From Halomarinibacterium sedimenti (lineage in GTDB: Bacteria > Bacteroidota > Bacteroidia > Flavobacteriales > Flavobacteriaceae), in NCBI RefSeq assembly GCF_019312585.1, contig NZ_JAHWDP010000003.1:62001-126000 (forward strand): a stretch of 64,000 bases of DNA. The letters are read 5' to 3'. The notes beneath the pieces were generated by a model. That model worked only from the letters and a program-made list of their open reading frames with translations, made no database searches and was not told where the DNA came from. A program made the position numbers and the translations under genes. Shown in pieces: positions 4,040 to 47,419 of the stretch; the stretch's first letter is position 1; each line of letters starts with the position of its first letter.

Positions 4040-4522
4040 TTACCTTTCCTTTTCAGAAAGCATTTTTTTTATTAGCACAATCTGTCCTAAATGGTAGTAA
4101 CAATGTTCAATTATTCCATCTATGTTTCGTTGGTAGGTGCCATACCTTTTATCTACAAAGGATTCAGCTAATTTAGAATTGGGTAATTGTTCGACAAGCA
4201 AAGCAAAAGCCTCAGCATCTGCCCAGAGCTTATTTAAAAATGTTTCCCATTGTACTTGAGTTTCCATGGGAGGAAAATCGAAACTGTAAGCATCTTTTAT
4301 ATCAAGTGTGCCACCTTCGAGCACATTTTTTACCCCAGCTATATAATAGTGAATATGCTGCGATAATACGGCAATTGAGTTTAAAGAGCCTTTTCTCTTT
4401 ATTACTTTTTCGAAAGGAAGGTTTTCTAGTTGGTCTTTAAAATTGGTGTTCGAAACCCATTTGCCATCTAAAACTACTTCTCGAAATCTGTTTGCAAGTT
4501 GCTGTGACATTGTCATTTGCAT
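4040..4522 (-). CDS. DinB-like (DUF1572-type) four-helix protein
   Basis: About 160 residues, all helical, with histidines placed as in the DinB/YfiT metal-binding fold: SQHIHYYIAG in the second helix and GIIEHCYYHLGQIV in the last helix. Members bind a metal ion and are often thiol-dependent transferases, but no substrate is predictable. Reading is open from a TTG at 4531; ATG codons follow at 4522, 4516 and 4510, and 4522 is taken because it starts 12 bases after the rnz stop. It is last in the tight pyrR-pyrB-STAS-rnz run. The link with pyrimidine genes may be only positional. Confidence 0.75.
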   Translation of the reverse strand: MQMTMSQQLANRFREVVLDGKWVSNTNFKDQLENLPFEKVIKRKGSLNSIAVLSQHIHYYIAGVKNVLEGGTLDIKDAYSFDFPPMETQVQWETFLNKLWADAEAFALLVEQLPNSKLAESFVDKRYGTYQRNIDGIIEHCYYHLGQIVLIKKMLSEKER

Positions 4523-37039: not shown

Positions 37040-38587
37040 ATGAGCGAGATAAAAGTACTTTGGGTAGATGATGAAATCGACTTGTTAAAACCACACATTA
37101 TATTTCTTGAAAACAGAAATTACAAAGTAACTACCGCTCAAAGTGGTTCAGAAGCACTTGAAGAAATTCATAAAGATGATTTTGATATTATTTTCTTGGA
37201 TGAAAACATGCCTGGACTTACTGGACTTGAAACTCTTGCTGAGATTAAGGAGCAAAAAGACTCGATTCCTGTGATTATGATTACCAAAAGCGAGGAAGAG
37301 TATATTATGGAGGAAGCTATTGGTTCTAAAATTGCAGATTACCTCATTAAGCCTGTTAATCCTAATCAAATATTATTAAGCTTAAAAAAGAATCTTGATC
37401 ACTCTAGGCTTGTTTCACAAAAGACAACCTCTAATTATCAACAGGAGTTTAGGAAAATTTCCATGGATATGTCTATGGTAAATTCCCCAAAAGAGTGGGC
37501 AGAGTTATATCAGAAATTGGTGTATTGGGAGCTAGAACTTGAAGATATTGAGGATAATAGTATGATTGAAATATTAGAAAGTCAAAAGACGGAAGCTAAT
37601 ATCCAGTTTTGCAAGTTTATCGAAAAAAACTATGCTTCATGGTTTGACGGAGATGATGAAGCACCTGTTATGTCGCACACTTTGTTTAGAGAAAAGGTTA
37701 TTCCCGAGATAAAAAACACACCCACCTTATTAGTGGTTGTTGACAATTTAAGATATGACCAATGGAAAGCTTTTGAACCCATGCTTTCCAGTTTCTATAA
37801 AAAAACAAATGAGGAAATTTTTTATAGCATATTACCAACTGCAACTCAATATGCTCGTAATGCCATCTTTTCAGGTTTAATGCCTAGTGAAATGGAAAAA
37901 TTATATCCTAATTTTTGGCTAAATGATACTGACGATGGAGGAAAAAATTTATATGAAGAAGATTTTTTGAAAGCGCAATTAAAGCGACTAGGGCTTAATC
38001 TTAATTGGAGTTACCATAAAATATCAAGCTTACGACAAGGCAAAAAGCTTTCAGAGAACTTTAAATCTCATAAAAATGAAGACCTTACCGTTGTGGTTTA
38101 CAATTTTGTAGATATGCTTTCCCATGCGAAAACTGAAATGGAAGTAATAAAAGAATTAGCCTCTACCGATAAATCATATAGATCATTAACAAAAAGTTGG
38201 TTTCGAAACTCTCCATTAATAGAAATAATTCAACAAGCCGCGCAATCTGGGTTCAAACTAATAATTACTACAGATCACGGGACTATTAATGTTAAGAATC
38301 CATCAAAAGTAATTGGCGATAAGAATACAAGTTTAAATCTTCGGTATAAAACAGGAAGAAGTCTATCCTATGAAGATAAAGATGTATTGGCAATTAAAGA
38401 TCCCAAAACAGTCCACTTACCAACCATTAATATGAGTAGCTCCTTTATTTTTGCCAAAGGGGATTTGTTTTTTGCATACCCAAATAATTATAATCACTAT
38501 GTAAGTTACTTTAGAAACACCTACCAACATGGAGGTGTATCGTTAGAAGAAATGCTTATTCCATTCTCTACTTTAATTCCAAAGTAA
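37040..38587 (+). CDS. porX: PorX: response regulator of type IX secretion with PglZ domain
   Basis: 515 residues. Residues 1-120 are a receiver domain with acidic pocket D10/D11, phospho-acceptor D54 (IIFLDENMPG), T82 and K104. A helical linker follows, then a PglZ/alkaline-phosphatase-like domain from about residue 205 with VVVDNLRYDQW (D235), PTATQYARN and ITTDHGTINV (D412, H413). This fused layout is PorX, which with the sensor PorY controls type IX secretion genes; porY is not in the window. tsaE follows on the same strand with its own -7 box. Confidence 0.95.
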   Translation: MSEIKVLWVDDEIDLLKPHIIFLENRNYKVTTAQSGSEALEEIHKDDFDIIFLDENMPGLTGLETLAEIKEQKDSIPVIMITKSEEEYIMEEAIGSKIADYLIKPVNPNQILLSLKKNLDHSRLVSQKTTSNYQQEFRKISMDMSMVNSPKEWAELYQKLVYWELELEDIEDNSMIEILESQKTEANIQFCKFIEKNYASWFDGDDEAPVMSHTLFREKVIPEIKNTPTLLVVVDNLRYDQWKAFEPMLSSFYKKTNEEIFYSILPTATQYARNAIFSGLMPSEMEKLYPNFWLNDTDDGGKNLYEEDFLKAQLKRLGLNLNWSYHKISSLRQGKKLSENFKSHKNEDLTVVVYNFVDMLSHAKTEMEVIKELASTDKSYRSLTKSWFRNSPLIEIIQQAAQSGFKLIITTDHGTINVKNPSKVIGDKNTSLNLRYKTGRSLSYEDKDVLAIKDPKTVHLPTINMSSSFIFAKGDLFFAYPNNYNHYVSYFRNTYQHGGVSLEEMLIPFSTLIPK

Positions 38588-38657
38588 TTTATTTGTAGGA
38601 TTTTACTTATATTAATACTTTTTATCGGATTTTATGTACCGTAATCGAAAATAATTC

Positions 38658-38665
38658 TATATTTG
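38658..38665 (+). promoter_or_regulatory. tsaE -7 box TATATTTG
   Basis: Perfect TAnnTTTG 16 bases before the tsaE ATG. Confidence 0.5.
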
Positions 38666-38681
38666 TTTCAGCCCTTGAATC

Positions 38682-39098
38682 ATGAAACGAACATACACAC
38701 TTGCAGAATTACCAGACATTGCTAGTTTGATTCTTGAAAACATTTCTTCCAAGACACTATTGTTATATGGTGAAATGGGAGTGGGCAAAACGACATTAGT
38801 AAAAGAGTTGGCACAAAAGTTAGGTATAAAAGAATCAATTAGCAGTCCAACCTTTTCAATTGTAAATGAGTATGATTTACCAAAAGATAAATTATATCAT
38901 TTTGATTTTTATCGAATAATAGATGAAACAGAATTATTGGATATTGGAATTGAAGATTATTTTGAAACAGATCACTGGAAATTAATTGAATGGCCCGAGA
39001 GAGTAAACGAAAATCTTTTACCATTCAACAGAACAACGCTAAAATTGACCAAAAATACAAACGGAAGTAGAACAATACAGATAATGCCAATGAGCTAA
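38682..39098 (+). CDS. tsaE: tRNA threonylcarbamoyladenosine biosynthesis ATPase TsaE
   Basis: ATPase partner of TsaB/TsaD in making t6A37 in ANN-decoding tRNAs. 138 residues with Walker A GEMGVGKTTLVKELA, the SSPTFSIVNEY segment, FDFYRI and the LIEWPERV motif, all TsaE markers. Own -7 box; small lipoprotein gene and ald downstream on the same strand. TsaB and TsaD are elsewhere. Confidence 0.95.
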   Translation: MKRTYTLAELPDIASLILENISSKTLLLYGEMGVGKTTLVKELAQKLGIKESISSPTFSIVNEYDLPKDKLYHFDFYRIIDETELLDIGIEDYFETDHWKLIEWPERVNENLLPFNRTTLKLTKNTNGSRTIQIMPMS

Positions 39099-39231
39099 AC
39101 AACGAGGGTACGAAGATAAATAGTAATGAAAAAATCTTATTTTAACATTAAGTAAGATTAATTTATTTCACATTAGGGTAAACTATACAAAATACCACTA
39201 AACTATTTGAAATACTTGTTTTTTTTCGTGA

Positions 39232-39239
39232 TAGGTTTG
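39232..39239 (+). promoter_or_regulatory. -7 box TAGGTTTG of the small lipoprotein gene
   Basis: Perfect TAnnTTTG 30 bases before the ATG at 39270. A TTTG lies 22 bases upstream of it (CTATTTGAAATAC), within a loose -33 spacing. Confidence 0.55.
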
Positions 39240-39269
39240 TAATATAAACCTCACAAAAAACCTAGTATT

Positions 39270-39404
39270 ATGAAACTTAAATACCTTTTAATCGTTGCAT
39301 TGTTTGGAGCTGCATTATTTGTGTCTTGTACTCCAGAAAGCGTGAATGATGGACAAACAGACCAACAAGTCGACAAAACACTTAAACCACTCCAGAACGG
39401 CTAG
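39270..39404 (+). CDS. 44-residue lipoprotein
   Basis: A small ORF (MKLKYLLIVALFGAALF start) with a lipobox FVSC, predicted lipidated Cys 20, leaving a 25-residue mature peptide rich in Asp and Gln. Its last 59 bases overlap the next membrane-protein gene in another frame. It has a good promoter box and an A-rich start context, so it is probably real. Function unknown; tiny lipoproteins of this kind are common next to porX/tsaE/ald-type clusters in flavobacteria (my recollection, not checked). Confidence 0.72.
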   Translation: MKLKYLLIVALFGAALFVSCTPESVNDGQTDQQVDKTLKPLQNG

Positions 39405-39876
39405 TAAATCGCTAGCGTTTGGGGGGATTATCGTTTTATTAATTGCGGTCTCACCATTTTTATTTTATTCATATAAAAGTTTCCCAGAATCTCAAGTCTG
39501 GGAGACTTCTCTATTTACCCTAAACACCTCTTTTCCAGATTGGTATTCATTTGCTTGGTACTTTACAGGGAAGGCAATACCTCTTTATTTACTATTACTA
39601 TGGTTTTTTACTTGTAGAGATTGGTGGCATTGGATTATACTTGTTCCTATAGCCATGTATGCCTTTCAATTATGGGGCGTAATTAACGAGAGTAATAACC
39701 TTGATGAATTAGAACTATACTACTTGGTTCCACTCATGTTATTTTTAGTTCCAGCAGTTTATTTAATCCGAGCCAAACTTTTTAATAAAGTAAGAGGTAA
39801 TGACTTAAAATCTTTCGAAGAAGAATTAAGTTCTCAAAAAACGTTCTGGCAACAAATCAAAGATTTATTCCAATAA
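39346..39876 (+). CDS. Small four-span membrane protein
   Basis: 176 residues from ATG 39346 (or the adjacent ATG 39349). Four predicted spans: about residues 25-46, 66-86, 90-112 and 123-145, with a Trp-rich loop TCRDWWHWI. The N-terminal 20 residues (polar, NKSTKHLNHS) are encoded in the 59-base overlap with the lipoprotein gene, so translation is likely coupled. No family recognised. It ends 58 bases before ald. Confidence 0.7.
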   Translation: MMDKQTNKSTKHLNHSRTASKSLAFGGIIVLLIAVSPFLFYSYKSFPESQVWETSLFTLNTSFPDWYSFAWYFTGKAIPLYLLLLWFFTCRDWWHWIILVPIAMYAFQLWGVINESNNLDELELYYLVPLMLFLVPAVYLIRAKLFNKVRGNDLKSFEEELSSQKTFWQQIKDLFQ

Positions 39877-39934
39877 ATCGCATTCCTTTTTTTAAAATTT
39901 ATTAGTAACTTGGCATAAGCAATAAGTCCTTATT

Positions 39935-41134
39935 ATGTCAAGCTCCTCTTCCCCATTTACCAAAGCGCAACTCATTCCACAGGAAGAAACTTTGGAGATT
40001 ACCCGAAATAAAACCCAATTGTATATAGGGATTCCCAAAGAGACACACTTTCAAGAAAAAAGAATTTGCCTTACGCCAGATGCAGTTGCAGCCATTGTAG
40101 GACAAGGGAATAAAGTACTCATGGAAAAAGGCGCTGGAACTGAAGCGGGTTTTCAAGATTCTGACTATAATGAAGCTGGTGCACAATTGACTCATGACAC
40201 CGAAAAGGTATTTGGTTGCCCAATTATTTTAAAAGTAGAACCGCCTACTCTAGAAGAAATTAAATGGATTCAGCCTAAAACATTACTTATTTCGGCGCTA
40301 CAGTTAAAAACACAAAAGAAAGAATATTTCGAACTGTTATCTAAAAAAAAGATTACAGCACTAGCCTTTGAATTCATAAAAGATGAAGATGGTACCTACC
40401 CTGCTGTCAAAGCCTTAAGCGAACTCGCAGGTACTGCCTCAGTATTAATAGCTGCAGAACTTATGGCGTATGGTAATAATAGTAATGGACTTTTATTCGG
40501 AAATATTAGTGGCGTTCCTCCCCTAGAAGTTGTCATTATTGGCGCAGGAACAGTAGGCCAATTTGCTGCAAGATCCGCTATAGGATTAGGTGCTAGCGTT
40601 AAGGTCTTTGATAGTTCAATTCCTAGACTTAGAAATCTTCAATTAGTAGCTGGCCAATCTATTTTTACTTGTACGCTACAGCCAAAATATCTTTTAAAAG
40701 CATTACGCAGATGTGATGTTGCCATTGGAGCGCTTCGCGGAAGTAATAGGTCTCCCGTGGTCGTCACAGAAACAATGGTTGAAAATATGAAAAAAGGGGC
40801 TGTAATTATTGATGTAAGCATTGATATGGGAGGGTGCTTTGAAACTTCCGAAATGACTTCACATGACAGGCCTACACACGTAAAACATGGTGTGATTCAT
40901 TATGGGGTACCCAATATTCCGGCCAAATATCCCAAAACCGCTTCCATAGCTATCAGTAATATATTCACCCCTTACCTCTTCGACATTGCCGAGTCTGGCG
41001 GAATTGAAAATGCACTTCGTTTTGACAATGGTTTAAAAAATGGATTGTATTTTTACCGAGGTATTTTAACCAATCAAACCGTTGGAAACTGGTTTAGTTT
41101 GCCACATAGCGATATTAATCTTCTAATTTTTTAG
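39935..41134 (+). CDS. ald: Alanine dehydrogenase
   Basis: NAD-dependent oxidative deamination of alanine to pyruvate. 399 residues: substrate domain (IGIPKETHFQEKRICLTPDAV, cited in part), GNKVLMEKGAGTEAGF, the Rossmann motif VVIIGAGTVGQFAARSA, and the C-terminal YGVPNIPAKYPKTASIAISN segment. The start context is a normal A/T leader; a box TAACTTGG (one base off TAnnTTTG) lies 20 bases upstream. Followed two bases later by a small gene starting with TTG. Confidence 0.95.
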   Translation: MSSSSSPFTKAQLIPQEETLEITRNKTQLYIGIPKETHFQEKRICLTPDAVAAIVGQGNKVLMEKGAGTEAGFQDSDYNEAGAQLTHDTEKVFGCPIILKVEPPTLEEIKWIQPKTLLISALQLKTQKKEYFELLSKKKITALAFEFIKDEDGTYPAVKALSELAGTASVLIAAELMAYGNNSNGLLFGNISGVPPLEVVIIGAGTVGQFAARSAIGLGASVKVFDSSIPRLRNLQLVAGQSIFTCTLQPKYLLKALRRCDVAIGALRGSNRSPVVVTETMVENMKKGAVIIDVSIDMGGCFETSEMTSHDRPTHVKHGVIHYGVPNIPAKYPKTASIAISNIFTPYLFDIAESGGIENALRFDNGLKNGLYFYRGILTNQTVGNWFSLPHSDINLLIF

Positions 41135-41136
41135 CA

Positions 41137-41508
41137 TTGAGCCTTTTTAAACGATTTCTATATTATTTTGGAGGATTCTCCATAGGATTAGTCATTTTAT
41201 TTTTCTTTTTAGGTGGAAAAAAGGCCTCTTGTGATTATGGCCCTAGTGCCCGCACGCTAAAGAATATTCGGACTAAAAACAGAATCATTAGCCCTGAAGT
41301 ACTTATACAGCTTCAAAATAAAGGACTTGATACTTCTTCAGTATCCAAGATTCTAAGGGAGGGCGATGTATTATTTTCTGAAAGTAATACTAAACTTGAC
41401 TCTTGTAAGATTTATGTAGTTGAAGGTGAAATTGAAAAAAAAATAATAAAACTTACCATCGAGAATTGTGAAAAAAGAGCCTCAATCAATGCGGTGAGTA
41501 TGCAATAG
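41137..41508 (+). CDS. Small membrane-anchored protein (DUF4258-like)
   Basis: 123 residues, starting with TTG two bases after ald. One N-terminal membrane span (residues about 7-26, YYFGGFSIGLVILFFFLG), then an external domain with NKGLDTSSVSKILREGDVLF and CKIYVVEG, which resembles DUF4258 proteins often found after ald in flavobacteria; assignment tentative. Three cysteines (CDYGPS, DSCKI, ENCEKR) could form disulfides outside the membrane. No known function. Confidence 0.65.
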   Translation: MSLFKRFLYYFGGFSIGLVILFFFLGGKKASCDYGPSARTLKNIRTKNRIISPEVLIQLQNKGLDTSSVSKILREGDVLFSESNTKLDSCKIYVVEGEIEKKIIKLTIENCEKRASINAVSMQ

Positions 41509-41544
41509 AAAATATTTATATTTAATAGGAATAAAGCTTTTAAT

Positions 41545-43677
41545 ATGATTCGGTTTCTGATTTTAATCTTATTTACAATTTCAATTTCAGTAAATGCACA
41601 AACTGAAACAATCATTGCTTGGGATATTTCATTGTCCATGAAAGAAAGAGATTTGGAAAAGGAATTTGATTTCATCACTAAATATTTTGAGCGCTACCAA
41701 GACACACAAGTAACTGTTTTACAGTTTAATAATGTTAATCTTTCAGAAACAGAATTTACCATAACAGATGGCGATTGGTCCGCAATAAAGACACTTTTAG
41801 AATCCTCTCAATACAATGGGGCAACATCATATCATCTGCTAAATAATATTCCTTCAACAAGCACTACCCTGCTTTTTACAGATGGAAAAGAAAATATAGA
41901 AAGAGATTTACCATTAATTGAAGGAACACTATATGTTGTAAATGGGAATAAGGATCACGATTTAAAAAACTTACAATTCTTAGCATTAGCCAATAAAGGT
42001 CGTTTTATCAACTTAATTAGCACTCTGCCAACCTCAAGTAATTATATAACATACACCGGGACTATTTTTTCTGAAAGTAATGAGGCTTCAGAAGTAGTTA
42101 TCTCTGTAAAAGGAACTAATAATTCAGTCATAGCAAATAAAGATGGAACCTATTCTATTGAAGCACAACCTGGAGATATTTTAGTGTTCAGTTCTTTAGG
42201 ACTGCCTCCCATAGAAAAAAAAGTAACAGAAGATAGGAACCTAAATGTTTGGGTGAAAAATGATGGAATTCAACTAGACCAAGTATTTATTAAAAACAAA
42301 AAAGCAGAAAAAGAATCTAATGTTGTTGTTAAAAAAGAAAGAGACCCAAAAACCATTGGCTACGCTGTTTCTACAGTTGAAGAAGAAGATCTCAATCAAG
42401 GAGTAAGTAATATTAGCGATGCCACAGAAGGAAAATTTAGTGGTGTTACAAAAGGAGTAAACCAAGATGTGAGTCAATCATTGATTCGAGGGTTATCAAC
42501 CATTTCAGGAAATAACTATCCACTAATTATTATCGATGGTGCTCCTATTGCTCGATCGTATTCAACTACTAATGGATTACTTCAACTTACCGACTTTATT
42601 GATCCAAAAAATGTTGCAGACGTTACCGTTTTAAAGGGCTTGGCAGCCACCAATCAATATGGATCGGAAGGATCTAATGGAGTGATTCTTATAAAAACCA
42701 AAATGGAAGCCGCTCGTGAAGAGGCTGAAAAAAGTGGGAGAGTAAAAAAGCCAGATAACTTTTACGAGGGTAAACCCATCTATACGTTACCTCCCACAGA
42801 AACGAAGTATCTTAACGAGATAAAAAATGTAAAAGACAGTAAGTCGGCATATAATCTATTTTTAAATCAGCGAGAACAATTTTGGAATGAACCAGCCTAT
42901 ATAATTGACTTATACAACCACTTTACCCCTTTAAATTTAAAAATGGCACAGGCCATTGGCTATAATCTTTTGGAACGTGAAGAAAGTAAACTTTCTTCGT
43001 TAAAAGGACTTTTATATGCAACCACTCAAAATAAGCATTATGAGATGGCGTTAGATGTCGCAACGCATTTATTAGAGCAATATCCTGAAGATGCTCAATC
43101 GTATTTAGACCTTGCATTAGCTCAAAAGAATGCAGGAAATAAACAAATTGCTTTAAATATGTTACTTGCTATTGATAACGGCACCATTAATCCAAGTATT
43201 AATTTTACACCTTTACTTAAAACGGTAAACAATGAAATTAGAAACATAGCTGCTACAAAAGACGCCCATTTTGATTTAAGTAAAATTGGTGTAAAACACC
43301 TGACAAAACCAAATTTAGATGCTAGAATAGTAGTAGCATGGAATAACCCAAATGCCGAATTTGAATTGTTTTTCGTAAACCCATCTAATCTTTTTTATAA
43401 ATGGGAACACACAAATAATAACCTAGAAAGACTGCAGCTAGAACAACTATTGGGGATTAATCAAGAAGAATTTGAAATTGAAGGAAGCCCTAAGGGACAA
43501 TGGCTCATTACAGTAAAATATATTGGGAATAGAATTTTTGAAGATATAGAACCTACTTTTTTAAAATATACAGTTCAATATGATTATGGCAAACCTACCG
43601 AAAGAACAGAAGAAAAGGTACTTCGCCTCTCTGAAAAAGGAAGTGAATATGTGTTGTTTAAAGTAAATATAAACTAA
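41545..43677 (+). CDS. Exported VWA / carboxypeptidase-regulatory / TonB-plug / TPR / DUF2135-like fusion
   Basis: 710 residues with a signal peptide (1-18, SVNAQ). Domains in order: VWA, about 20-160, with the metal motif AWDISLSMK (D27, S29, S31) and LLFTDGKE; a carboxypeptidase-regulatory-like beta-sandwich, about 168-235; a TonB-receptor plug, about 265-390, including LIIIDGAPIA and the SusC-type ending YGSEGSNGVILIKTK; a TPR region, about 485-550; and a DUF2135-like C-terminus, about 590-710 (ARIVVAWNNPNAEFELFFV, YDYGKPTERTEE). No transmembrane barrel follows the plug, unlike receptors. It follows a 36-base gap after the DUF4258-like gene; its stop overlaps the convergent proline dehydrogenase stop. 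Confidence 0.75.
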   Translation: MIRFLILILFTISISVNAQTETIIAWDISLSMKERDLEKEFDFITKYFERYQDTQVTVLQFNNVNLSETEFTITDGDWSAIKTLLESSQYNGATSYHLLNNIPSTSTTLLFTDGKENIERDLPLIEGTLYVVNGNKDHDLKNLQFLALANKGRFINLISTLPTSSNYITYTGTIFSESNEASEVVISVKGTNNSVIANKDGTYSIEAQPGDILVFSSLGLPPIEKKVTEDRNLNVWVKNDGIQLDQVFIKNKKAEKESNVVVKKERDPKTIGYAVSTVEEEDLNQGVSNISDATEGKFSGVTKGVNQDVSQSLIRGLSTISGNNYPLIIIDGAPIARSYSTTNGLLQLTDFIDPKNVADVTVLKGLAATNQYGSEGSNGVILIKTKMEAAREEAEKSGRVKKPDNFYEGKPIYTLPPTETKYLNEIKNVKDSKSAYNLFLNQREQFWNEPAYIIDLYNHFTPLNLKMAQAIGYNLLEREESKLSSLKGLLYATTQNKHYEMALDVATHLLEQYPEDAQSYLDLALAQKNAGNKQIALNMLLAIDNGTINPSINFTPLLKTVNNEIRNIAATKDAHFDLSKIGVKHLTKPNLDARIVVAWNNPNAEFELFFVNPSNLFYKWEHTNNNLERLQLEQLLGINQEEFEIEGSPKGQWLITVKYIGNRIFEDIEPTFLKYTVQYDYGKPTERTEEKVLRLSEKGSEYVLFKVNIN

Positions 43678-44846
43678 ATCCCTCTTCTACTTTTTTCTTT
43701 CTTAAGCAACTCCAATTCTCGACTCGTCTGCCCCGCCACTGAAGTATTTTCTTCGGCTCTGCGTATTAAATATGGCATCACGTCTTTAACAGGACCAAAG
43801 GGAATGTATTTCGCTACATTATATCCCGCTTCAGCAAGGTTATAACTTATATGGTCACTCATTCCGTAGAGTTGCCCAAACCAAACACGAGAATCATTTT
43901 TTTCGATTCCCAATTCCTCCATAATTTCCATAGCCAAATAGCTGCTTTCCTCATTGTGTGAACCCAAAAACAAGGATATATCATTAATGTTTTCTAAAAT
44001 GTACCGTACTACTTGATTAAAATGAATATCCGTCGCTTGCTTATTGGCACATATGGGTGTAGGATACTCCTTCTCCTCTGCTCTGTCATTTTCTTTTTCC
44101 ATATAAGCACCTCGCACTACTTTAAATCCTAATTTATAGCCTTTTGCCTTAGCTCGTTGATGTATCTCTTTTAAATAATCCAATCGATCCCACCGATAGC
44201 ACTGTAGCGTATTAAAAACAATCACATTCTCTTTATTATAGCGCTCCATCATTACTTCGCAAAGATCATCTGCCGCATCTTGCATCCAGGTTTCTTCGGC
44301 GTCGATAAGTAGTTGAATGTTCCTAGAATGAGCTTCACTGCAAACAGCATCATATCGTTTAATAATTCGGTCCCATTCTGCAGATTCTTCAGAAGTAAGT
44401 TCTTTGTCTTCAGTAACTTTTTGCCAAATCTTAAACCGTCCCAATCCTGTTGGTTTAAACACAGAAAATGGCATTGCTGGCTTTTTTTCAGCAAAACGGG
44501 TTAATTCTATTATCTTTTTCAAGGTAGAATCAAACTGATTTTCCTCTTCTTTCCCTTCAACCGAATAATCCAAAACCGAATATACCCCTGCTTCCATTAA
44601 GTTATCCACTACGGGTAAACAATCCTTTTCATTAACTCCTCCACAAAAATGATCGAAAACCGTAGACCGAATAAGCCCTTCAACAGGTAAGTGTACTGTT
44701 AGCGCAAACTTGGTCACAGCAGAACCAATCTTCACCAAAGGTTCATTTGCAATCATTTTAAATAAAAAATAAGCACGCTCTAATTGAGCATCGCTTTTAA
44801 GCTTAAAAGCAATTTCGGTATTATCAAACAAACGTTTTGTGGTCAT
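43674..44846 (-). CDS. Proline dehydrogenase, single-domain
   Basis: FAD-dependent oxidation of proline to pyrroline-5-carboxylate. 390 residues with the PRODH barrel: VRGAYMEKENDRA, the DAEETWMQ strand, HNEESSYLA, FGQLYGMSDHISY and C-terminal YIPFGPVKDVMPYLIRRAEEN. It lacks the P5C dehydrogenase domain of full PutA, so a separate enzyme is needed. Convergent with the VWA/plug gene (stops overlap by four bases) and divergent from aroB with overlapping promoter boxes. Confidence 0.95.
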   Translation of the reverse strand: MTTKRLFDNTEIAFKLKSDAQLERAYFLFKMIANEPLVKIGSAVTKFALTVHLPVEGLIRSTVFDHFCGGVNEKDCLPVVDNLMEAGVYSVLDYSVEGKEEENQFDSTLKKIIELTRFAEKKPAMPFSVFKPTGLGRFKIWQKVTEDKELTSEESAEWDRIIKRYDAVCSEAHSRNIQLLIDAEETWMQDAADDLCEVMMERYNKENVIVFNTLQCYRWDRLDYLKEIHQRAKAKGYKLGFKVVRGAYMEKENDRAEEKEYPTPICANKQATDIHFNQVVRYILENINDISLFLGSHNEESSYLAMEIMEELGIEKNDSRVWFGQLYGMSDHISYNLAEAGYNVAKYIPFGPVKDVMPYLIRRAEENTSVAGQTSRELELLKKEKSRRGI

Positions 44847-44864
44847 TTTAAAATTTTATTATCA

Positions 44865-44891
44865 CAAATATAGTTAGATTTGAAATCACAA
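44865..44891 (-). promoter_or_regulatory. Proline dehydrogenase promoter (TTG / TATATTTG)
   Basis: Minus-strand TTG (44891-44889), 16 bases, TATATTTG (44872-44865); 18 bases before the ATG at 44846. It overlaps the aroB -7 box region. Confidence 0.6.
44875..44882 (+). promoter_or_regulatory. aroB -7 box TAGATTTG
   Basis: Perfect TAnnTTTG on the plus strand, 30 bases before ATG 44913. It also contains the TTG that could be read as a start codon at 44880, which argues for the ATG. Confidence 0.5.
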
Positions 44892-44912
44892 AACCGAAGT
44901 TTTTCATCACTC

Positions 44913-45989
44913 ATGAAAAAAATTAAAAGAGAAAATAGTACTGTTGTTTGCAATGATGGTTGCTGGGAATATTTAAATGACAGTGTCGCAGGTTCAAATT
45001 ATTCTAAAATTTTTGTACTTGTCGATACCGAAACAAAAAAACATTGCTTACCCCTCTTCATTGAAAAAACATCCCTTGATAAAATAGAAATTATTACGAT
45101 TCCTGTAGGAGAGATATATAAATCTATCGAGACTTGCCTTCTTGTTTGGAATGCGTTGTCGAAAAAAGGAGCCGATAGGCAAAGTCTCTTAATAAACTTA
45201 GGGGGTGGCGTCGTTACAGATTTAGGAGGCTTTGTGGCAAGCACCTATCAAAGAGGTATTTCTTTTATTAATATCCCCACTTCCCTATTAGCTATGGTAG
45301 ATGCCTCGGTAGGTGGGAAAAATGGGGTGGATTTAGGGAATTTAAAAAACCAAATTGGTGTTATAAAAGATCCAATAGCTGTCATTGTGGATAGTCATTT
45401 TCTGAAGACCCTTCCCAAAGATCATATTACTTCTGGCAAGGCCGAGATGATTAAGCACGGATTAATTACTTCAGAAAATTACTTAAAAAAAACGTGGGAA
45501 TTTAAAGTTGACAATACTTCTGAAGCCGAAGAATTAATATGGGAATCTATTCTAATAAAGAATAAAATTGTAACTCAAGATCCTACAGAAAAAGGCATTC
45601 GTAAAACTCTAAATTATGGGCACACCATGGGGCATGCTATAGAATCCTATTGCCTCGATCATGCTAAAAAACCTACTCTTTTACACGGAGAAGCTATTGC
45701 CATTGGATTAATATTAGAAACGTATATTTCTTCTGAAATGTTTGACTTTTCACAAGATAAATTAAATGAGATTACAGATAAACTACTAGCCATTTTTCCA
45801 AAAGTTTCGTTTAACGATAATGACATTGATGAGATTATTAAATTATTAATTTTCGATAAGAAGAACACACATGGTACCATTCAGTTTGTTCTTTTATCAG
45901 ATATTGGAAAATCCAAAACCAGTTGTGTGATATCTAATGACATATTAAAAAAAGCATTTAAATTTTATAAAAATTTTATTACCAAATAA
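44913..45989 (+). CDS. aroB: 3-dehydroquinate synthase
   Basis: Second shikimate step; NAD- and metal-dependent. 358 residues from ATG 44913; a TTG at 44880 would add 11 residues but lies in the -7 box. Motifs: LINLGGGVVTDLGGFVASTY (NAD and phosphate binding), NIPTSLLAMVDASVGGKNGVD (cited in part), KAEMIKHGLI and the metal ligands in LNYGHTMGHAIES and LLHGEAIAIGL. Divergent from proline dehydrogenase. Confidence 0.95.
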   Translation: MKKIKRENSTVVCNDGCWEYLNDSVAGSNYSKIFVLVDTETKKHCLPLFIEKTSLDKIEIITIPVGEIYKSIETCLLVWNALSKKGADRQSLLINLGGGVVTDLGGFVASTYQRGISFINIPTSLLAMVDASVGGKNGVDLGNLKNQIGVIKDPIAVIVDSHFLKTLPKDHITSGKAEMIKHGLITSENYLKKTWEFKVDNTSEAEELIWESILIKNKIVTQDPTEKGIRKTLNYGHTMGHAIESYCLDHAKKPTLLHGEAIAIGLILETYISSEMFDFSQDKLNEITDKLLAIFPKVSFNDNDIDEIIKLLIFDKKNTHGTIQFVLLSDIGKSKTSCVISNDILKKAFKFYKNFITK

Positions 45990-45999
45990 AAACTTATTA

Positions 46000-46007
46000 T
46001 ATATTTG
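46000..46007 (+). promoter_or_regulatory. -7 box TATATTTG of the acidic-tail protein gene
   Basis: Perfect TAnnTTTG 25 bases before the ATG at 46033. Confidence 0.5.
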
Positions 46008-46032
46008 AAACAGTACCAACCTCCCCAAAACT

Positions 46033-46368
46033 ATGAGACGTATAATTGTTGATTATAAAAAACTAACTCCGGAAATCCTTTCCCTTTTAGTGGAAAAATA
46101 TCCAGATGGGTATGATGACAATCATATAATAAGCTTTAAAAATGCTAAAAATGAATGGGTTGAAGCTGTTGAAGTAAAAACAGAAGATACTATTTATCTT
46201 GTAAAAGTAAGTGCAAGGTTAGAAGTCTCCATGGCAAATTTTGATGAGGATGATTATACTGAAGATGAATTTTCTGAACCCATTAGTGAGCTTCCTGAAA
46301 AAGAAGCTATTGACGATGATTTGGATGTAGAAGATATAGATCCGGAAATAGATCCTGAAGAAGATTAA
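46033..46368 (+). CDS. Conserved hypothetical protein with acidic tail
   Basis: 111 residues. Residues 1-72 form a compact alpha/beta domain (IIVDYKKLTPEILSLLVEKY, WVEAVEVKTEDTIYLVKVS); residues 75-111 are almost entirely Asp/Glu-rich (DEDDYTEDE, DDDLDVEDIDPEIDPEED). Such tails occur on proteins that bind basic partners such as ribosomal or nucleic-acid-binding proteins. No family recognised. It has its own promoter box and converges with the DinB gene, overlapping it by four bases. Confidence 0.72.
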   Translation: MRRIIVDYKKLTPEILSLLVEKYPDGYDDNHIISFKNAKNEWVEAVEVKTEDTIYLVKVSARLEVSMANFDEDDYTEDEFSEPISELPEKEAIDDDLDVEDIDPEIDPEED

Positions 46369-46877
46369 AGGTATCTTTCTTTTAAAATAGCGGTGTGATG
46401 GATTTCGTGACCTAGAATAATTCTTCCTATCGCACGAATTGAAACACTTGTATTATTGGCTTTTCCCATTCTTGCCATCGTTTCTTTACTAAAACTTGAA
46501 TATAAAGAGACACTGGATTTTCTCACATTAATATACTCTTCTACCAAACTACGTATACTTCTAGAATTGGCATTGCTATTTTCAACAAATTCATCTTGAT
46601 CAAAACCTTGCATTTCGGCATTAGTAGCACGTGAAATAAATAAAGCTCTGTAGGCAAAAACTCTTTCGGAATCAATAAGGTGCAATAAAATTTCCTTAGG
46701 CGTCCATTTTCCTTCTGCATAGCGATACTCCAATTTTTCGATAGGAAAGGATTCAAAAAAGGCTTTGGTTCTATGTAAACCCATTTCTAAGCCATTTACA
46801 ATTTCGATGCCTTCGGATTTTTTTATATAGCCTTCGTAAAAAGGAGCATATTCATTTGGTGTGATATCAGAATTCAT
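46365..46877 (-). CDS. DinB family protein
   Basis: 170 residues, four-helix DinB/YfiT fold: KEILLHLIDSERVFAYRAL carries the first metal-ligand His, and GHEIHHTAILKERYL the C-terminal His cluster. Members bind zinc or nickel and may act as thiol transferases; substrate unknown. It lies four bases after the Lrp gene, so they are likely co-transcribed. A second DinB-like gene is at 4.0-4.5 kb. Confidence 0.85.
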   Translation of the reverse strand: MNSDITPNEYAPFYEGYIKKSEGIEIVNGLEMGLHRTKAFFESFPIEKLEYRYAEGKWTPKEILLHLIDSERVFAYRALFISRATNAEMQGFDQDEFVENSNANSRSIRSLVEEYINVRKSSVSLYSSFSKETMARMGKANNTSVSIRAIGRIILGHEIHHTAILKERYL

Positions 46878-46881
46878 ACTA

Positions 46882-47361
46882 TTAGATATTTTTAAAAATA
46901 GTATGCATTAATCGCTTTTTATCGTTTATACTTTCTTCAAGTGAAATCATGGTTTCTGTCCTAGTCACTCCTTCTATATCATCAATGCTGTAAATTATTT
47001 CTTTTGCATGGCTGGTATCTCTTGCTCTTATTTTACAAAAAATGTTAAATTTTCCTGTGGTTACATGAGCAACAGTAACATATGGAATCTCATTAATTCG
47101 TTCTAATACAAATTGTGTTTGAGATGTCTTTTGAAGAAACACACCTACATAAGCAATAAAAGCATATCCTAGCTTCTTATAATCCAATGTGAGGGATGAA
47201 CCAATAATTATTCCCGATTCCTCCATTTTTTTTACACGAACGTGCACAGTTCCAGCAGAAATTTTAAGATTTTTAGCAATATCTGTAAAAGGAGTTCTAG
47301 TATTCTCAATTAACATATCGAGAATTTTATGATCTGTTTCGTCTAATTTGAATTTTGCCAT
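46882..47361 (-). CDS. Lrp/AsnC family transcriptional regulator
   Basis: 159 residues: winged HTH (DHKILDMLIENTRTPFTDIAK, NLKISAGTVHVRVKKMEESG; quoted in parts) and a C-terminal RAM ligand-binding domain (GVFLQKTS, VTTGKFNIFCKI, GVTRTETMISLEES). Usually senses amino acids. ATG 47361 is chosen; an earlier in-frame start at 47391 would add ten residues within the promoter region. Its target genes are not evident; the nearby aminoacid genes (ald, PRODH) are candidates only. Confidence 0.93.
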   Translation of the reverse strand: MAKFKLDETDHKILDMLIENTRTPFTDIAKNLKISAGTVHVRVKKMEESGIIIGSSLTLDYKKLGYAFIAYVGVFLQKTSQTQFVLERINEIPYVTVAHVTTGKFNIFCKIRARDTSHAKEIIYSIDDIEGVTRTETMISLEESINDKKRLMHTIFKNI

Positions 47362-47379
47362 GGCTCTTAAATTTGAAGG

Positions 47380-47388
47380 GCAAAAATA
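47380..47388 (-). promoter_or_regulatory. Lrp gene -7 box TATTTTTGC
   Basis: Perfect TAnnTTTGC on the minus strand 18 bases before ATG 47361. Confidence 0.5.
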
Positions 47389-47419
47389 CAAATAAACTTT
47401 TCGGAATCCTCAATAAATT

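Follow-up and report, generated by a model that had tools for sequence, protein, structure and literature searches.

An unbroken gene of Halomarinibacterium sedimenti encodes a 710-residue protein that holds the N-terminal extension (NTE) and plug of a SusC-type receptor between a VWA domain and a TPR-DUF2135 module, and that has no barrel. The gene lies within what we call the window, which is the whole stretch of 64,000 nucleotides that was analyzed. We tentatively propose that this protein may be a barrel-free adaptor or client of the Ton system, where its binding, its location and any work it performs are what we infer. TonB is commonly regarded as serving transporters. In many Bacteroidota, apparently soluble scaffolds hold a plug, a TonB-docking-like motif or, once, the tip of TonB, but no gate, and such scaffolds hint that transporters may not be the only clients of the import motor.

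Make-up and setting of the 710-residue protein

The open reading frame (ORF) starts with ATG, and the following features were assigned to it.

41545..43677, + strand: whole gene, VWA-CPDRD-plug-TPR-DUF2135, 710 residues (ORF call, Pfam)
41545..41601, + strand: probable Sec signal peptide, residues 1-19 (MIRFLILILFTISISVNAQ), lipobox absent (by eye)
41602..42024, + strand: VWA domain, residues 20-160 (Pfam below cut-off; relatives; model Z 12.9)
41623..41637, + strand: MIDAS motif D27-x-S29-x-S31 (alignment of short forms)
42049..42288, + strand: CPDRD / SusC NTE domain, residues 169-248 (Pfam; 9hfj Z 12.2)
42274..42297, + strand: degenerate strand LDQVFIKN at the Ton-box position, residues 244-251, of putative function (alignment, model)
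42340..42705, + strand: SusC-type plug, residues 266-387 (Pfam, TIGR04056, PDB sequence matches, Foldseek)
42805..43254, + strand: TPR-like helices, residues 421-570 (Pfam below cut-off; model)
43321..43671, + strand: C-terminal DUF2135-like beta domain, residues 593-709 (Pfam below cut-off; C-module alignment; model)

How secure is a plug without a barrel? Plug family PF07715 matches residues 269-380 at 52.3 bits (cut-off 23.9), within the segment 260-390 where the initial annotation had read such a plug, and the match to the SusC model TIGR04056 is confined to model positions 1-205 of 981, which indicates that the barrel is absent. The matching PDB sequences are SusC or RagA proteins and span the NTE and plug only. 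The carboxypeptidase-regulatory-like sandwich described earlier ahead of the plug is recovered as CarbopepD_reg_2 (PF13715; residues 171-248, 42.3 bits against a cut-off of 32.2). Matches of the same ORF to VWA_2 (21.6 against 27 bits), TPR_17 (17.3 against 24.4 bits) and DUF2135 (PF09906; 15.2 bits against a gathering cut-off of 22) fall under the Pfam cut-offs, and these three calls were accepted because they are supported by relatives and by the structural model. DUF2135 scores above its cut-off in relatives L062, L065, L071 and L072 and below it in L073 (17.1 bits), and VWA is below its cut-off in the relatives scanned as well. In the paralogue L062 the VIT domain (79.7 bits), plug and DUF2135 are all above cut-off; no VIT match was found by Pfam in the window copy.

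An AlphaFold model computed from a 29-row alignment (A2) has a mean pLDDT of 81.6 and a pTM of 0.65. It places, in order, an N-terminal helix, the VWA domain, a beta sandwich, a loose stretch at residues 240-271 (low confidence, pLDDT about 28), then the plug (moderately confident), a run of TPR-like helices and, at the C-terminus, a beta domain, such that the plug is succeeded by helices and no barrel. Structure searches of the model (Foldseek, VIA-align) recovered the VWA domain at Z 12.9, and VIA-align related the CPDRD to the SusC NTE 9hfj at Z 12.2. The plug resembles that of SusC 5fq6 at 33-35% identity, a match from Foldseek alone since the VIA-align rows are mostly VWA. The VWA metal motif that had been noticed earlier stands, with D27 and S29 of the MIDAS invariant in 29 of 29 rows of the short-form alignment; this alignment was relied on because a simple MIDAS pattern, which matched 57 of 85, was too strict. 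Relatives and model likewise back the TPR-like helices and beta-rich, DUF2135-like C-terminus that had been proposed below the reach of the Pfam cut-offs. The signal peptide was assigned by eye, without a predictor. A profile of the TPR-DUF2135 module (hereafter C module; alignment A1, 15 rows) matches the ORF with an E value of 1.1e-105, the ORF itself being among the seed rows.

Between the gene and a 123-residue ORF that Pfam does not match lie 36 bases, and this ORF in turn comes after an alanine dehydrogenase gene. A proline dehydrogenase gene on the opposite strand shares the last four bases of its 3' end with the gene. The nearest relatives of the 710-residue protein, three copies in L119 with 41-47% identity, are flanked by homologues of the same two dehydrogenases. 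No SusD family member was found among the ten neighboring ORFs at 37040-47391 (Pfam, E up to 0.001; three of the ten have no match at all), and the neighbors with Pfam matches look metabolic, regulatory or housekeeping. At 37040-38587 of the window lies a response regulator with a PglZ domain (Pfam), a make-up that we take to be that of the T9SS regulator PorX.

A scaffold family and its variable linker

The C module was matched in 99 of 299 sampled genomes of the window's family and, phylum-wide, in 38 of 395 genomes, 16 of which belong to that same family. The window copy and loci selected among these matches gave 109 ORFs that were read, at least three of them (L072, L153_15, L164_63) lacking the N-terminus at a contig end. 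Their architectures are CPDRD-plug-C (32), VWA-CPDRD-plug-C (27), VIT-VWA-CPDRD-plug-C (16) and variants for the remainder, the long relatives being VIT-VWA-linker-TPR-DUF2135. A plug is matched in 97 of the 109 at E < 0.01 and in 78 at E < 1e-5; twelve members have no plug match, and plug scores are weak in many of the VWA-less CPDRD-plug-C forms. The C module begins a median of 16 residues (maximum 52) past the plug in the 97 ORFs with a plug match and leaves at most 13 residues before the ORF end in all 109. Therefore, a barrel has no room behind the plug in any of the 109 ORFs, which answers the earlier concern that homologues might carry a full barrel. By simple patterns, a hydrophobic N-terminus is present in 108 of 129 members (the 109 plus 20 phylum-wide ORFs) and a lipobox-like motif in none of the 129. 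The genome of the window holds one paralogue with the C module (L062; 1163 residues), which reads VIT-VWA-CPDRD-plug-TPR-DUF2135, and 22 further plug matches; a scan of genome contigs with P0001 gave one remote locus. Four tandem family copies are present in each of L154 and L155.

What occupies the linker between VWA and TPR? Across relatives this slot holds a CPDRD-plug, a Ton-box-like motif with the start of a plug or just part of a plug, and one genome has a TonB C-terminal domain there. Among 20 loci drawn from the phylum-wide C-module search, the profile found a plug in L194, L198 and L211, and inspection by eye found a Ton-box motif with plug start in L196, L197, L200 and L201, CPDRD with a Ton-box-like stretch in L206, a plug middle in the deep-branch relatives L199, L203, L207 and L209, and nothing recognizable in the other eight. 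Within the window's family, L071, L072, L141 and L150 keep just pieces in the slot (by eye). The TonB C-terminal domain (PF03544, 25.0 bits, cut-off 24.6) stands in a VIT-VWA-TPR-DUF2135 protein at L143:3241-6480 (-), and seven other genomes of that genus have CPDRD-plug there. The L207 piece, a plug middle without a Ton box (by eye), shares 68% identity across 62 residues with a CPDRD-plug protein that its own genome encodes at another place; against CPDRD-plug proteins of five other genomes the identity is 44-50%. All these proteins are at loci that stop before the barrel region could be checked.

Behind CPDRD, a loose Ton-box motif is found in 92 of 98 family members and a strict one in 70 of 98 (shuffled means 5.2 and 0.4); for SusC the counts are 41 and 35 of 42. 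Plug-free control proteins with residues behind CPDRD, five of seven from one gene family, carry the loose motif in 7/7 and the strict motif in 6/7 cases. A control that gave 2/9 was unfair, as the majority of its CPDRD domains lie at the very end of their proteins. The motif behind CPDRD was therefore abandoned as evidence for TonB, and only linkers without CPDRD speak for a Ton box. Among the VIT forms in which CPDRD is not matched, 9 of 22 have the strict motif (shuffled mean 0.08; several share a genus) and 13 do not. In the genus of G397, where the protein is present in 29 of 60 genomes, the CPDRD and plug body are lost and the linkers are hypervariable. An LNEVVVVGY-like Ton-box motif is found in 24 of 28 of these linkers (shuffled mean 0.70, highest 5 in 1000) and an LxGRVAGV-like plug-start motif in 21 of 28 (shuffled mean 0.002), by patterns drawn up once the alignment had been seen. 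This test left out L241 (partial) and L242 (the same gene as L239), and with L241 the counts become 25/29 and 21/29. In a model of L213, the Ton-box (residue 640) and plug-start (675) motifs fall inside residues 592-696, where pLDDT is below 50. The LDQVFIKN of the window copy aligns where LDEVVVVG stands in the Ton-box position, and its L119 kin read LSQVFLKN, LEQVFIQN and LGEVFLKK. For comparison, the Ton box of SusC BT1763 is DEVVVTG and is needed for function and growth on levan, according to an excerpt of PMC7782687.

Origin and constraint of the plugs

Plug origins were examined with a quick tree of 117 plugs, 42 of them labeled SusC, over 131 columns, in which 50 of 114 inner branches are open and groups had been defined by domain content ahead of tree building. 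The SusC label is confirmed above cut-off along nearly the whole model for the 18 of the 42 that were scanned; the SusC row L261 (wrong strand) was excluded, as were minus-strand SusC segments with stops from the seed profile. The 21 VIT-VWA plugs are scattered among SusC plugs, and 27 of 36 VIT-less VWA plugs, including that of the window, form a separate group (support 81). The AU test rejects a single clade of VIT-VWA plugs (p 1.1e-4) and a single clade of SusC plugs (p 6.3e-4), and with this a one-time plug capture by VIT-VWA proteins is rejected on 131 columns and a quick tree with many open forks. Moreover, the VIT-VWA label requires three changes on the C-module tree (45 rows) and 11 on the plug tree (21 rows). 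Based on these label changes and AU rejections, it looks as though the scaffold has one history and the plug several captures or exchanges with SusC plugs. The earlier suggestion that a VIT/VWA-like scaffold had captured the plug gains ground accordingly from the plug tree and from relatives such as the paralogue in the same genome, with more than one event being needed.

The plug signature is kept in all four plug groups (R315 90-100%, D331 80-100%, G373 and G379 100%) among rows that had been preselected by plug coverage. Plug omega is 0.09-0.38 in 10 of 14 pairs, none of which includes the window copy; the other four are saturated, and plug dS is at least 0.99 in all omega pairs. Plug omega exceeds C-module omega in 9 of 10 pairs. 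Gene conversion is suggested by the tandem array at L154:2529-9834, where the C modules of the copies at 4372 and 7945 hardly differ (dN 0.004, dS 0.05) although CPDRD and plug have diverged.

Does the plug have any bearing on TonB at all? Abundant SusC and receptor genes may simply recombine into the linker, so that the plug would be no more than a spacer that the protein tolerates, or a surface for ordinary protein binding that has nothing to do with TonB. Such function-poor shuffling would account for the several captures or exchanges, the hypervariable linker, the weak plug scores of many VWA-less forms, the higher omega of the plug and the generality of the motif behind CPDRD. We nevertheless consider it rather unlikely: the omega of the plug stays well under 1, 24 of the 28 CPDRD-less linkers keep the Ton-box motif, and M56 proteins, an unrelated family described below, also contain plug or TonB_C pieces.

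A candidate client of the Ton system

We hypothesize that the protein would be a Sec-exported, soluble scaffold of the periplasm, whose constant working parts would be the VWA (MIDAS) domain and the TPR-DUF2135 module. The SusC-derived NTE-plug cassette in the joint between VWA and TPR could then be a handle onto the Ton system, with either TonB itself or the plug-binding sites of TonB-dependent receptors as its presumed partner. Such a scaffold might recruit TonB, compete with receptors for TonB, or sense receptor or TonB occupancy. The earlier suggestion of a partner bound by the plug in trans may likewise hold. Because its Ton-box position is degenerate, the window copy would more likely make contact through its plug and NTE. 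The rationale for the Ton system is that one slot may hold a Ton-box-like motif, a plug or TonB_C, for which contact with this system is the simplest explanation. Consistent with this reading are the conserved plug signature, a Ton-box-like motif that endures where linkers have lost CPDRD and plug body, the cassette exchange with SusC plugs, the one TonB C-terminal domain in the slot, the plug omega of 0.09-0.38 (10/14 pairs), and the plug pieces or TonB_C-like domains of M56 loci. It is opposed by the QVF/EVF forms of the window copy (LDQVFIKN) and its L119 kin, the non-specific motif behind CPDRD, the 13/22 CPDRD-less VIT forms without the strict motif, the 12/109 members without a plug match, the L207 linker, the observation of TonB_C in the slot in one genome alone, and the excess of plug over C-module omega in 9/10 pairs.

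M56 (BlaR1-type) peptidases are unrelated to the scaffold and do not share it, but they too carry receptor or TonB pieces without a barrel. Among the loci L278-L307 (30 read, from 40 matches in 31 genomes searched), plug pieces are present in 8/30 and a TonB_C-like domain, as in L143, in 12/30. ORF lengths here are open frames, except in L283, L288 and L301, which are cut by the locus, and the counts rest on other reading than a metal-site pattern that found just 12 M56 ORFs. Thus an unrelated family likewise carries either part. We would extend the Ton-client reading only with considerable reserve to a Bacteroidota class of barrel-free clients, in which VIT/VWA-TPR-DUF2135 scaffolds and M56 peptidases might engage via a Ton box, a plug or a TonB C-terminal domain and use TonB force or receptor state for signaling, proteolysis or envelope work, not import. 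A widespread barrel-free family with plug parts and a Ton-box-like motif, and in one case the tip of TonB instead of these, makes such non-transport use of Ton directly testable, and the binding partners of the SusC NTE and plug could be studied in it away from any barrel.

An alternative hypothesis is that the plug acts in trans: held by the VWA/TPR scaffold, it would enter the barrels of TonB-dependent receptors whose own plug is displaced or cleaved, and would seal or regulate these barrels. Expulsion of the SusC plug has been observed in vitro (excerpt of PMC7782687), the barrel-free plugs retain signature residues, among them R315 of the IRG motif, and the L207 piece is closer to the CPDRD-plug protein of its own genome (68%) than to those of five others (44-50%). 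However, plugging in trans is improbable, because the fragments in many members are too short for filling a barrel and because a slot that can also hold TonB_C is at odds with it. Far less plausible is a decoy or guard, whereby a periplasmic plug mimic would bind toxins or phage parts that enter by receptors and TonB: the fourfold tandem arrays of L154 and L155 could be read as diversification, as could the L154 pair whose CPDRD and plug diverged while the C modules stayed almost the same (dN 0.004), but the Pfam-matched window neighbors look metabolic, regulatory or housekeeping. Finally, a truncated SusC, whether pseudogene or broken receptor, was ruled out despite the end of the SusC match at position 205 of 981, since the ORF is intact, the C module recurs in 99/299 genomes and 0/109 relatives have room for a barrel.

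How would a barrel-free Ton client compare with known systems? As in SusC/RagA (TIGR04056), the CPDRD NTE, Ton-box position and plug follow one another in identical order; unlike SusC/RagA, the protein lacks the barrel, has VWA before the cassette and TPR and DUF2135 after it, and has no SusD partner gene among the ten ORFs scanned beside it. VIT and VWA of the long-form relatives are shared with VIT/VWA (inter-alpha-trypsin-inhibitor heavy-chain-like) proteins, and ITIH1 is the top Foldseek match of the window model, whereas the window copy has no VIT and a receptor cassette occupies the linker. The BamP profile NF053692 matches residues 171-281, which comprise CPDRD and what follows it, at 25.5 bits, far under its curated cut-off of 230, and membership was rejected on this score; according to an excerpt of PMC12611786, BamP of the Flavobacterium johnsoniae BAM complex is periplasmic and enters a barrel of the outer membrane. 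An excerpt of PMC12204202 proposes vWA force transducers, with VWA or CPDRD proteins working with Ton/Tol-like force, and a Ton-linked role for the CPDRD of PorE; those transducers differ in being tethered to the inner membrane, and the excerpt describes no plug fusion. A literature search of open-licence papers found no published description of a plug with a VWA or VIT scaffold, no paper on DUF2135 and none on M56/BlaR1 peptidases with TonB or a plug in Flavobacteri.

Two kinds of gene lie beside or near family members. At L073:11603-14317 (-), next to a family gene, lies a 904-residue MG2-domain protein with a plug-like VVIDG stretch by eye, where Pfam reported no plug. A gene of 380-391 residues with CPDRD at both ends occurs near or just downstream of family genes at L063:13365-14519, L122:9202-10344, L124:8146-9315, L154:9839-10996 and L156:5937-7112. 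By eye, its middle domain resembles the N-terminal part of L067:8164-11181, in which this domain would be fused to VWA-CPDRD-plug-TPR-DUF2135.
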